The notes under the pieces were generated by a model. That model made no database searches, had not been told where the DNA came from, and saw nothing but the letters and a program-made list of their open reading frames with translations. This document shows, one piece after another, positions 12,732-18,597 of a stretch of DNA of 64,000 nucleotides; position 1 is the stretch's first letter; each line of letters begins with the position of its first letter. The stretch is from Lentimicrobium saccharophilum (lineage in GTDB: Bacteria; Bacteroidota; Bacteroidia; Bacteroidales; Lentimicrobiaceae): the NCBI RefSeq assembly GCF_001192835.1, contig NZ_DF968183.1, forward strand, positions 1,075,338 to 1,139,337, written 5' to 3'. Position numbers and translations under genes: made by a program.

Positions 12732-12835
12732 TTTTTAGAAATTAAAAATTAGAAATCAGAAATTCTAACAGGCCGGATGTTCAATACCGGGATTCAGAAA
12801 AAAAATCCCTGCATCGGAAGGCAGGGATCAGAGGA
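12732..12835. repeat. 104-bp direct repeat, copy 1
   Basis: Matches 18407-18510 over 104 bp with four differences, all in the first 40 bp; the remaining about 65 bp are identical. In copy 2 this sequence is the region immediately downstream of tRNA-Leu, including its terminator. Here no tRNA is attached and the match ends abruptly at 12835. Confidence 0.95.
12797..12828 (-). terminator. Orphan copy of the tRNA-Leu terminator
   Basis: Perfect 8-bp stem (12805-12812 with 12821-12828), 8-nt loop, and a run of eight A on the plus strand that gives a T tract on the minus strand. Identical to the terminator behind tRNA-Leu at 18480-18503. Here it may terminate the convergent-side 13005-13739 transcript. 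Confidence 0.8.
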
Positions 12836-12979: not shown

Positions 12980-13755
12980 GTTATGTGTTGTAAATTATTA
13001 TATTTCAATCATTTGCAAGCTTGAAATTTAATAAATAATCCAATAATTTTGAATGAATCAGACTTAAATTACATCCTTTGCTTTCAATTAATTGTCCATT
13101 TGTTTTAATCACGAAATTACTCGTTTCTCCGTCAATCGGGCATCCTCTCTCAAATGGTAAATAAATTGAATAATAATCGGCTAGTTTTTGTTTTAAAATC
13201 AAAATTTCTGAATCATTTAGCTGTTCCTTGATTATTTTGTGCTTTCTCTTGAATCGTCTTGATTTCAGCGGTAAGTAAGTAATCTTATCGTAATAGTTTC
13301 CTTGGTTATCAATCCGAATCAATCTGTTATCAGACCACGGTGTCAGATATTCAAGCTCAATGTACTCAAAATCAAAAATCTTACTTGAGAATAATTTTAA
13401 ATCCTTATATTCAAGCTGAAAATTACTTGGCGAAATAAGAGTCAATGTACTATCAGTCTGTTTTGAAATATTATATTTTAATCGTTTGACTTTGTATCCT
13501 AATGGCGTGTTTGGCTCGTATTCATTCTTCTTTATAATCAAATCATTTCCGATAATCTCATATTTTGCAGTATCACGGACTTGATATAAAGATGAATAAA
13601 TCAATGAATCATTAATCAGCTCGACAAAATTAAAATCAGAATCAACCAGAAATTTTCCAATCAATTCAGTCTTTAAAACTTGTCCAAAAGTTAATTGACA
13701 AGAAATCAAAACGCTAAATATGATTATCTGTGTCTTCATTTTTATTACACATAAC
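12980..13755. repeat. 9-bp inverted repeats bracketing an AT-rich gene
   Basis: GTTATGTGT at 12980-12988 and its perfect complement ACACATAAC at 13747-13755 flank the 13005-13739 gene closely on both sides. The arrangement, with the repeat just before the start and just after the stop, resembles the borders of gene cassettes. Confidence 0.7.
13005..13739 (-). CDS. AT-rich exported protein of unknown function
   Basis: The start is set at 13739, because the protein then begins with a signal peptide (MKTQIIIFSVLISCQLTFGQ); the frame to 13817 adds an unlikely leader. 244 residues, mainly beta strand, rich in Lys, Ile, Leu and Asn. Phrases such as YEIIGNDLIIKK and LTLISPSNFQLEYK resemble lipocalin-like proteins of Bacteroidota, but I cannot name a family. 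Two cysteines near the C-terminus (RGCPIDGETS and SKGCNLSL) could pair. The base composition is clearly more AT-rich than the neighbours and the gene lies between 9-bp inverted repeats, which points to acquisition by transfer. Confidence 0.7.
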   Translation of the reverse strand: MKTQIIIFSVLISCQLTFGQVLKTELIGKFLVDSDFNFVELINDSLIYSSLYQVRDTAKYEIIGNDLIIKKNEYEPNTPLGYKVKRLKYNISKQTDSTLTLISPSNFQLEYKDLKLFSSKIFDFEYIELEYLTPWSDNRLIRIDNQGNYYDKITYLPLKSRRFKRKHKIIKEQLNDSEILILKQKLADYYSIYLPFERGCPIDGETSNFVIKTNGQLIESKGCNLSLIHSKLLDYLLNFKLAND

Positions 13756-13863: not shown

Positions 13864-14019
13864 TTATGAGCCTGTTTTACCCAAAGTAATTCCTTGTTTT
13901 TTCAGGCTTTCTCTAACATTGTACTTGTATTCCCTGCTAAAATCTTTAGTAAACTGAAATATCTCAAGCAAAAGGTCATAACAGGCTTTATATACCGGAA
14001 GATCATAATGTAAACCCAT
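13864..14019 (-). pseudogene. Truncated avd-like four-helix-bundle protein (DGR accessory protein)
   Basis: A 51-codon frame starting MGLHYDLPVYKACYDLLLEI and continuing with FTKDFSREYKY and RESLKK. This is the N-terminal third of the four-helix-bundle family (usually about 115-125 residues) that includes Avd, the accessory protein of diversity-generating retroelements. After SLKK the family normally continues with a helix of the type ETIEL; here it changes to an unrelated tail and stops, so the gene is truncated. It lies 71 bp downstream of the FISUMP-domain gene on the same strand, the order seen in DGRs of this phylum. The break coincides with the border of the cassette-like 13005-13739 gene. 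Similar proteins also occur without DGRs, for example in rRNA intervening sequences. Confidence 0.75.
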
Positions 14020-14090
14020 AATTCAAAAAAAATCGATCCTGCCATAGGCGGGATACCGCAATTGTCAAATAGACAAATAGTCAAAGAGTC

Positions 14091-15416
14091 TTAATCCCTG
14101 AGGCAACGAACAGAGAAGCCAATTTGCTTACTGCCGTAGCTCCTGTAGACATAGCTGTAATTGTAAAGCAGGGTTCGGTACCAGGCAAGGCTTGAACTGA
14201 ACTCACCGGAACTCCAGAAGTAACCGTACGCACCAATGTAGCTGAATGTACCATTGCCGTAGCGGTAGCCCCCCGGAAGACCTGAAAATCCGCTCTCATT
14301 GGTTGCTCCGGTATTGGGTAAAATCCACCATGGGTGTGCATCGGATTCTGTGCGGGTACTCTTCATTTTACCACCGGCAATGCTTTCACCACCAAGGTAG
14401 TCGGTTAAAATTATCCATTCAGAATCGGTCGGTGTATGCCAGCCGGCCGGGCAAAGTCCCTTGCTATCAACCACTGCATACCAATTGTACAATGCGCCGT
14501 AACTGTCTTTCCAAGAAATGTCGTTGTCATACCAAGCATAAGCGCCGGTAGTAAGGTTGATCCAGGTATTGTCGTCCGTGACATTGGGAATGGCAGTACC
14601 GTTCCGATAGGTTGTGGTTTTCAGGTTCTCTTTCATCCAGCATTGATTACCTATCTGCACAGTATTATATACATTGCCATCAATATCGGTTATCGTTGGA
14701 GTACCGGGGCATGGATCGCCGGTATAATGAAAATAATAGGTCTCGTCACCTGTGGGTGAACTCGTAATGACTCGTTCACCAAGATCAGTAAAAGAAGTGA
14801 ATTTAAGTGTGTCACCCAGTCCAAATACAAAAATGTTCAGAAGGTTTCCCGATTTATAATCCCCGGCTCCGGTTTTCAGCTGCCCGTTGTATCCCAGTTT
14901 GTAAAATCCTGAAGCATCCGCATCGGTTGGATAATTTAACAATTTTATTGTTCGGGTTTGATTATCTGCACGGGCAGTGAGAAAATAGAGGCTTTCCCTG
15001 CCAGGGTAAAAGGTGAAGGAATGGGTGCCCTGTTCTAACGGAAATTCCTGATTGGCCACCTCTCTTCCCAACACATCACTGACAGTAACCACAACCTCCT
15101 CTCTTTCATTCAAAAAAAGCTCAATTGTCGTTTTGCCTATTATTGGATTTGGGTAGTTTTGGGAAAGGGAAAAACCTTTGCCGCTGAAAGTGCCGATTTC
15201 TTCCATTCCGGTGATATAGTCTAATACTAAAACAGTATCAGGTGCATAAAGCGTGGTGTCCCCACCCTGGGTCAGGTTCTCGATCAGGATGCTGTTCAAT
15301 GGCAGATGCTGGGTATTGCTATCGGCGGTATAGGTCAGGGTCATTGTTGCTTTCTGGGCCATCGCGCCCGTGATCATTGCGATCATTAAAACGGTAGGCA
15401 AAAATCTTTTTTTCAT
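14091..15416 (-). CDS. FISUMP-domain secreted protein, probable DGR target
   Basis: 441 residues: signal peptide (1-20), a T9SS-like sorting module placed internally (about 84-160, with QNYPNPIIGKTTIEL and VSDVLGREV), a linker domain, and a C-terminal FISUMP domain (245-441) with YNTVQIGNQCWMKENLKTT, GLCPAGWHTPTDSEW and the end GFSVRCLRD. FISUMP domains have a C-type-lectin-like fold and are known variable proteins of diversity-generating retroelements. The last 60 residues (14091-14276) are rich in Tyr, Ser and Asn at alternating positions, as in a DGR variable region built from AAY codons. A truncated avd-like gene follows. A minimal hairpin GCGG-TATC-CCGC lies downstream at 14047-14058. 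FISUMP genes also occur without DGRs. Confidence 0.85.
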   Translation of the reverse strand: MKKRFLPTVLMIAMITGAMAQKATMTLTYTADSNTQHLPLNSILIENLTQGGDTTLYAPDTVLVLDYITGMEEIGTFSGKGFSLSQNYPNPIIGKTTIELFLNEREEVVVTVSDVLGREVANQEFPLEQGTHSFTFYPGRESLYFLTARADNQTRTIKLLNYPTDADASGFYKLGYNGQLKTGAGDYKSGNLLNIFVFGLGDTLKFTSFTDLGERVITSSPTGDETYYFHYTGDPCPGTPTITDIDGNVYNTVQIGNQCWMKENLKTTTYRNGTAIPNVTDDNTWINLTTGAYAWYDNDISWKDSYGALYNWYAVVDSKGLCPAGWHTPTDSEWIILTDYLGGESIAGGKMKSTRTESDAHPWWILPNTGATNESGFSGLPGGYRYGNGTFSYIGAYGYFWSSGEFSSSLAWYRTLLYNYSYVYRSYGSKQIGFSVRCLRD

Positions 15417-15848
15417 AAAACATCAATTTAATTTCTTAGAACTCTGTGATCATTTTAAGCTGTCTTATTTGATGTATGCTTTCTCTTCATTATGTTGGCT
15501 AAAAAGTGTATATCCGCGACTAAACCAAGGACTTTAATCTGTCCTAATGGTTAGCCATAACTTATTGTCAATCAAGACAAAATTCAACAAAATAGCGATG
15601 CAATGCACATTTTTAAACGCTAATAAGCGCTTGGAATTGCCAAATTATCTGCGCAACTCAGGCCCAAATATATAACATTGAAATAAAAAGAGCAATAAGA
15701 GATTGGGATTGCAGCAGTACTTTGCATAAGCTATTACGGAAAGGCTGGTATTATTTACCACCTATCAGAAAAGTTTCAGAATGCTACAAGGCCAAATTAA
15801 AAACTTCTATATTACATTCAATTACAAATGATTATCGAAGTTTATAGG
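15417..15848. other. Gene-free AT-rich stretch upstream of the FISUMP gene
   Basis: No convincing coding frame, RNA gene or strong promoter. It ends at the 3' side of the altered tRNA-Leu copy. Confidence 0.5.
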
Positions 15849-15934
15849 TACCCGAAGCCGGGGTCGAACCGGCACGGCCACAATGGCCAAAGGATTTTTA
15901 AGTCCTTCGTGTCTGCCAATTCCACCAACCGGGC
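15849..15934 (-). tRNA. Second tRNA-Leu copy with an 8-nt anticodon loop, probable pseudogene
   Basis: Matches the intact tRNA-Leu (18513-18597) over its full length with five substitutions and one inserted A. The insertion enlarges the anticodon loop from 7 to 8 nt (CTTAAAAA). Two of the other changes disturb the acceptor stem: positions 7 and 66 become T-T and the 6-67 pair becomes G-T. The T arm, D arm and long variable arm remain intact. The upstream flank is also related for about 17 bp, but the downstream terminator is absent. It is probably a decaying duplicate; an expanded loop is also the hallmark of frameshift-suppressor tRNAs, so activity cannot be excluded. Confidence 0.8.
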
Positions 15935-18406: not shown

Positions 18407-18510
18407 TTTTTAGAAATTAAAAATCAGGAATTAGAAATTCGAACAGGCCGGATGTTCAATACCGGGATTCAGAAAAAAAATCCCTGCATCGGAAGGCAGG
18501 GATCAGAGGA
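18407..18510. repeat. 104-bp direct repeat, copy 2, downstream of tRNA-Leu
   Basis: Partner of 12732-12835 with 100 of 104 positions matching. This copy is in its natural context: it begins 2 bp beyond the tRNA-Leu 3' end and contains the tRNA terminator. The two copies enclose the whole accessory region. Confidence 0.95.
18473..18503 (-). terminator. Terminator of tRNA-Leu
   Basis: Perfect 8-bp stem ATCCCTGC/GCAGGGAT (18480-18487 with 18496-18503) with an 8-nt loop, followed on the minus strand by a run of T. It ends 10 bp from the tRNA 3' end. Confidence 0.9.
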
Positions 18511-18512
18511 TG

Positions 18513-18597
18513 TACCCGAGGCCGGGGTCGAACCGGCACGGCCGCAATGGCCAAAGGATTTTAAGTCCTTCGTGTCTACCAATTCCACCACTCGGGC
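18513..18597 (-). tRNA. tRNA-Leu (anticodon UAA)
   Basis: 85-nt class II tRNA. The acceptor stem GCCCGAG pairs with CTCGGGT (first pair G-U) and the discriminator is A. The anticodon stem AAGGA/TCCTT encloses the loop CTTAAAA, giving anticodon UAA. The long variable arm (GGCC/GGCC) and the T arm with GGTTCGACC are intact. CCA is not encoded (ACA follows). It decodes UUA, and UUG by wobble. Confidence 0.95.

Follow-up and report, generated by a model that had tools for sequence, protein, structure and literature searches.

A FISUMP gene of Lentimicrobium saccharophilum appears, on comparative sequence evidence, to be the orphan target of a diversity-generating retroelement (DGR), whose variable region probably continued to be rewritten, with a DGR core working in trans, after avd, the template repeat (TR) and the reverse transcriptase (RT) had been lost; this reading includes a core that was once resident and has since been lost. 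The gene lies in the window, which is the whole stretch of 64,000 nucleotides that was analysed (Table 1), and it has a counterpart in an island of a sister genome (G004, UBA5833). The avd break is common to both islands, so the break came first and the variable-region differences later. Since the differences followed the break, homing continued without avd, TR or RT in cis.

Table 1. Features of the window and their identity to the sister island
Feature	Position	Strand	Basis or remark	Identity to sister
Island common to window and sister at high identity	12799..16430			94.6-99.5% by segment outside the variable region
Segment	15504-16430			98.4%
Upstream arm of inverted boundary motif	15489..15503		12/15 bases match the downstream arm	
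FISUMP target gene, 441 aa, internal T9SS sorting-type domain	14091..15416	-	PF09603 and PF18962 profile matches	
FISUMP residues 1-360				95.6%
Variable region, 61-codon register counted from LPGG	14097..14279	-	Template-adenine differences	72%
Variable region, last 180 bp of FISUMP gene				72.2%
FISUMP stop to avd				94.6%
Hairpin, 8-bp stem	14036..14054	-	One mismatched pair in window, perfect in sister	
51-codon frame, 5′ stub of avd, homology ~codons 1-46	13864..14019	-	Comparison with L246 avd	96.2%
Downstream arm of inverted boundary motif	13876..13890		Overlaps end of stub frame	
Gap between avd frame and neighbour gene				95.7%
AT-rich neighbour gene, 270 aa	13005..13817	-	Flanked by its own inverted repeat	98.9%
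Segment	12799-13004			99.5%
Backbone genes				93.5, 93.8 and 88.5%

A DGR target followed by a truncated avd

PF09603 covers residues 253-440 of the 441-residue product (E = 3.5e-47 in a Pfam profile search), which gives the protein a C-terminal domain of a known DGR target kind. The same domain is in print as the target Fib_succ_major (PMC4159848); a literature search pairing "FISUMP" with "diversity-generating retroelement" returned no papers. A Pfam match to PF18962 at residues 88-158 (E = 2.8e-6) puts the T9SS sorting-type domain (window 14943-15155(-)) in the middle of the protein rather than at its C terminus, and a PDB sequence search gave no useful match. The first-pass annotation had described the last 60 residues as rich in Tyr, Ser and Asn. 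The first two are abundant (11 Tyr and 10 Ser); Asn is scarce, with three AAT codons after residue 370. Tyr is written as TAC 10 times and TAT once at the end of the gene, as against 7 TAC and 14 TAT in the part before it.

The 51-codon frame starts 71 bp past the FISUMP stop, and the avd of L246, an RT-linked DGR, starts 72 bp past the stop of its own target. Over residues 1-46 of that 113-residue avd the frame is 69.6% identical (E = 3.3e-15), and the full L246 avd is itself a bAvd (PF22296, E = 6.2e-15). General profiles respond weakly, with 16 bits for PF05635 (E = 0.014, cut-off 33.8 bits) and E = 0.14 for the NCBIfam Avd model NF033474. The proposed match to the first third of Avd is thus borne out when the frame is aligned directly with an Avd, though not by general profile. 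The final few codons overlap the boundary motif instead of continuing the avd homology. Window and sister stubs differ at six bases, four of them in residue-changing codons, and these differences fit what would be expected of a decaying pseudogene.

Differences between the islands fall on template adenines

To read the variable region we used the templates of L235, L246 and L223, which belong to other families, aligned to it without gaps and with 30 columns of mixed template bases left out. Window and sister (L062) differ at 32 of 51 columns where all templates have A and at 7 of 102 where none has (p = 2.4e-13). Taken one at a time, the templates give p ≤ 6.8e-11 for A, and C, G and T have no excess. 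No shifted register comes near the adenine value of the true register, and none of 20,000 permutations within codon positions reaches it. The variation extends to some codons upstream of the 61-codon register. Variation directed at adenines among related strains, as the first-pass annotation had predicted, is therefore what these differences display, with templates of other families standing in for a cognate one. Together with the PF09603 domain, the adenine-patterned variable region upholds the identification of the gene as a DGR target.

Two loci of genome G018 were compared with the window in the same way. L068 resembles the sister in its pattern, differing at 29 of 51 all-A and 9 of 102 no-A columns, and at positions 1, 2 and 3 of the template Asn codons 14, 12 and 2 times. 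L063 differs at 32 of 51 and 25 of 102, and at 13, 15 and 12 of 21 Asn codons; it looks old or differently templated. From the L063 pattern it follows that recent diversification is not valid for every orphan target.

The sister island is closely similar outside the variable region

The sister locus, on the contig DJGZ01000047.1 of UBA5833 (also L081), has the same FISUMP gene, avd stub, avd break and neighbour gene as the window. Most of the island is closer between the two genomes than the backbone genes are, as after lateral sharing; the constant part of the FISUMP gene is just slightly closer. Within that constant part, ~14701-14960 is 85-92% identical to the sister, and this lower identity means that some recombination has touched the gene.

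The backbone gene adjoining the island lies within ~500 bp of tRNA-Leu and mutS in 8 of the 17 genus loci fetched and at 6.1 kb in the window; the other nine loci end early, have wider spacing or are different. The window has tRNA-Leu twice, at 15847-15934(-) and 18512-18597(-), and the copy on the island side carries an extra A in its anticodon loop (taaa), as does the copy in the sister island (L062 785-872). A terminator-like stretch of roughly 70 bp forms a direct repeat on both sides of the insert (12770-12835 and 18440-18510). Because of these repeats, the region looks like an insertion or duplication beside tRNA-Leu.

Several loci have short repeats and a candidate GC hairpin behind the variable region. 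The hairpin has z = -6.2 in the sister, with its perfect 8-bp stem, and z = -1.9 in the window; in a shuffle test allowing no mismatch, 11 of 24 loci reach 0.05 and 13 do not. In phage BPP-1 a stem structure is reported as required for homing (PMC3240598), and the mismatched stem of the window may therefore mean a weakened target.

No mutator found in the own genome or recognised in the genus

The own genome (G000; 4.5 Mb, 2 contigs, 97% complete) has no RVT_1 match anywhere. The RT of a FISUMP DGR (L155), itself recognised by RVT_1, finds nothing there as a query; across 393 genomes of the order it matches 123 at E ≤ 1e-3, many of them merely through distant RTs. Searched with the variable-region DNA, the genome yields the gene itself and seven short matches at E 1.5 or worse. 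A template protein query returns the FISUMP gene and no template repeat, and a predicted template query returns that gene and no template (2 of 33 candidates scored). With the L246 avd as query, the stub alone comes up (query residues 4-46 of 113), and the eight PF05635 proteins elsewhere in the genome are not matched. Thus, with these queries, G000 has no DGR-type RT, no template repeat and no full-length avd, which supports the first-pass statement that RT, TR and the rest of avd are absent.

In the genus (19 genomes, several incomplete), RVT_1 occurs at 13 places in 8 genomes: 10 with a group II-type motif, 2 with a DGR-type motif and 1 fragment at a contig end. Both DGR-type RTs (G009:C41 and G012:C44) have phage-like genes around them and other targets, and were rejected as mutators. 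One of them belongs to a prophage-like DGR with another target type (L193, G012:C44; 9682 and 9883), whose 90-base repeat pair has 15 mismatches, every one at a T of one copy, or A on the other strand. Sister genome G004 has only a group II intron-type RT. TR and RT had been expected at this locus in close relatives; the sister island has neither, and no FISUMP-type RT or TR was recognised in the 19 genomes, which counts against the first-pass interpretation. The L246 avd query finds five partial copies beside FISUMP genes in 3 of the 19 and two weak other matches in two genomes, and no full-length avd of this type. The template protein query matches 13 of the 19, mostly within long frames; in the subset of matches inspected, those in short frames (G018:C15, G011:C50, G004:C24 and G004:C77) proved to be FISUMP ends, not Asn-rich templates.

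A search of viral contigs with one RT gave nothing, and neither did a template-derived pattern. With an RT alignment 79 viral loci came up, and 43 of these also match FISUMP, a template or avd. RT identity is at most 48.8% among the best 10 of 54 records from named phages and at most 35.8% among the best 10 of 31 from plasmids.

Proposed diversification in trans and its alternatives

We propose that avd, TR and RT were lost from the window copy, and that a core consisting of RT, Avd and template RNA would then rewrite the variable region in trans. This core may sit in DNA outside the assemblies (phage, plasmid or unassembled), or may have been resident and since lost. Homology at the invariant end of the variable region, together with the hairpin behind it, would direct the mutated cDNA to its target, and the gene would encode a lectin-like protein, secreted and exposed on the surface, whose binding face changes. 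The trans action is something we infer, and several observations weigh against it: no cognate template or mutator was found in any data searched, the pattern of L063 is unlike recent homing, the window hairpin is mismatched, and the FISUMP gene carries traces of recombination.

Some of these observations lend some substance to the view that the gene is a frozen relic. According to it, a complete cis DGR in ancestors or other strains made the diversity, a single loss removed the right half, alleles spread to the stub-bearing islands by homologous exchange, and nothing diversifies them now. The absence of a mutator from G000, the sister's group II intron-type RT, the imperfect window stem and the resemblance of L063 to an old, drifting copy all agree with this, as does the description of orphan targets of Treponema denticola as leftovers (PMC4891356). 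We nevertheless consider it unlikely. With one avd break in both islands, the differences must have arisen or arrived afterwards, and exchange would have to replace almost solely the variable region between flanking segments that are at least 94.6% identical. The first-pass annotation had called the locus a DGR remnant; its anatomy, a target and an avd stub with neither TR nor RT, is that of a remnant, and the suggested frozen protein finds no support, the sister having the same broken avd and a different, adenine-patterned variable region. The other option it had raised, diversification in trans by an RT elsewhere, fits better, although the genome searches yielded no mutator.

Gene conversion with another FISUMP copy, which would need no DGR since the split, is less probable still. 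FISUMP genes are common in relatives (117 of 149 genomes match) and the mosaic segment 14701-14960 shows that recombination happens, yet the own genome contains just one FISUMP domain, and an imported divergent copy should also alter no-A columns, as in L063 (25 of 102), where 7 of 102 were observed. The small number of no-A differences likewise favours a core in trans over exchange with copies that have a core.

Ordinary point mutation with selection for change of the binding face, where varying residues would presumably be exposed in a C-type-lectin fold, is scarcely credible: at the 21 codons where every template has Asn, window and sister differ 14, 15 and 1 times at positions 1, 2 and 3 (29 of 42 at the first two against 1 of 21 at the third, p = 6.4e-7), and transversions dominate in residues 361-441 (20 transitions and 44 transversions, compared with 28 and 20 in residues 1-360).

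Boundaries of the unit

Of 19 loci, 7 have a 15-base motif (up to 3 mismatches) at 40-88 bases upstream of the FISUMP start, and 7 have its inverse no more than 330 bases downstream; in L237 this inverse copy comes after the RT. Five of the 19, window and sister among them, have both arms. The motif was derived from the same loci in which it was counted; three RT-linked loci were counted upstream only, with approximate positions, and at one locus the upstream side runs off the contig. In L083 the arms agree at 14 of 15 bases and in L070 at 9 of 15, and they suggest units that may have inverted ends. No target-site duplication was demonstrated.

Two accounts of these boundaries were considered and not adopted. 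If orphan units were exact deletions running from codon 40 of avd through the end of the RT, the motif should follow the RT, as it does in just 2 of 17 RT loci. As for integron gene cassettes, the seven boundary stretches give z of 0.22, -2.69, 0.61, -1.31, -1.69, -2.61 and 0.66 and do not fold like attC, and the integron integrase model TIGR02249 scores above cut-off in 0 of the 19 genus genomes. Mobilisation of DGRs by transposons, perhaps integrons, has been suggested (PMC3521204).

The AT-rich neighbour gene matches no family in Pfam or NCBIfam, and its inverted repeat arms (12980-12994 and 13741-13755) differ in sequence from the boundary motif. In G013 (L286) it is interrupted by a transposase-like gene, itself given no family identification. 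Replacement of the right half of the DGR by this gene, as first proposed, lacks support because L083 and L086 have a similar avd break followed by the same motif where the neighbour gene has no match.

It is possible, and for now a tentative idea, that DGR targets here move about in non-autonomous units, each made up of target, hairpin, avd stub and inverted boundary motifs and lacking a mutator, which would be hypermutated in trans by cores on other elements, phages included. Such units would be akin to non-autonomous transposons that use foreign transposases.

Implications and comparison with known systems

Our findings suggest that target genes of this kind can spread, and undergo diversification, independently of the mutator. 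A target without a nearby RT carries the full mutational signature, which can be read with templates from other families, and orphan targets could be detected and counted by this means. The action of DGR mutators across replicons and the spread of targets without mutators become testable from here.

The closest parallels are the RT-linked FISUMP DGRs of Bacteroidales (L246, L155, L231 and L239), which likewise have an adenine-patterned FISUMP target with avd downstream. L246 follows the order FISUMP, avd, TR, RT that the first-pass annotation gave as frequent in DGRs of Bacteroidota, and L246 and L239, like the window, have a candidate hairpin between target and avd. Unlike the window, which keeps the target and avd stub only, all four retain avd, TR and RT. 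Seven RT-linked FISUMP DGRs, of which L342 and L343 are on viral contigs, were compared each with its own template and have the same adenine pattern (Table 2). Flaws occur among them as well: L246 has an interrupted target frame, L239 an in-frame stop in its RT, and L244 an RT that matches in two pieces.

Table 2. Mismatches of RT-linked FISUMP targets to their own templates
Locus	Template adenines mismatched	Other columns mismatched
L246	33/73	2/124
L155	19/59	2/134
L239	31/71	1/128
L231	24/64	1/136
L244	44/69	0/124
L342	16/52	1/120
L343	21/51	5/120

Two further loci are partly broken. In L234 (G208:C116, 6548-8534), a DGR that has template and RT, avd breaks off at codon 38, and a gene of the PDDEXK_3 nuclease family (PF13366, E = 2.3e-38) comes next. 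L237 (G230:C1) is a decaying FISUMP DGR with avd and RT interrupted and the template in two pieces.

The phage-borne systems L342-L344 (IMG/VR contigs) have FISUMP target, avd, template and RT in that order, with RTs 54-55% identical to that of L246. They differ from the window in being complete and are not cognate to its variable region; their presence on viral contigs means that such cores can be phage-borne.

The DGR of Bordetella phage BPP-1 also has, as its target site, a GC-rich hairpin shortly after the variable region (PMC3240598), to which the candidate hairpins here are comparable. BPP-1 has a 4-nt GRNA loop, whereas the loops in the loci here are often 3 nt (GAA, TTC or TTT), and the window stem is mismatched.

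Finally, orphan targets as such are known. Treponema denticola is described as having targets far from RT and TR, or in isolates that lack both (PMC4891356), and the window target, without RT and TR, resembles these. What is new is the lateral sharing, the avd stub and mutagenesis that outlives the truncation. The Treponema leftovers are read in that account as remnants, whereas the variable region of the window differs between two copies with the same truncation, so that homing outlived the loss.
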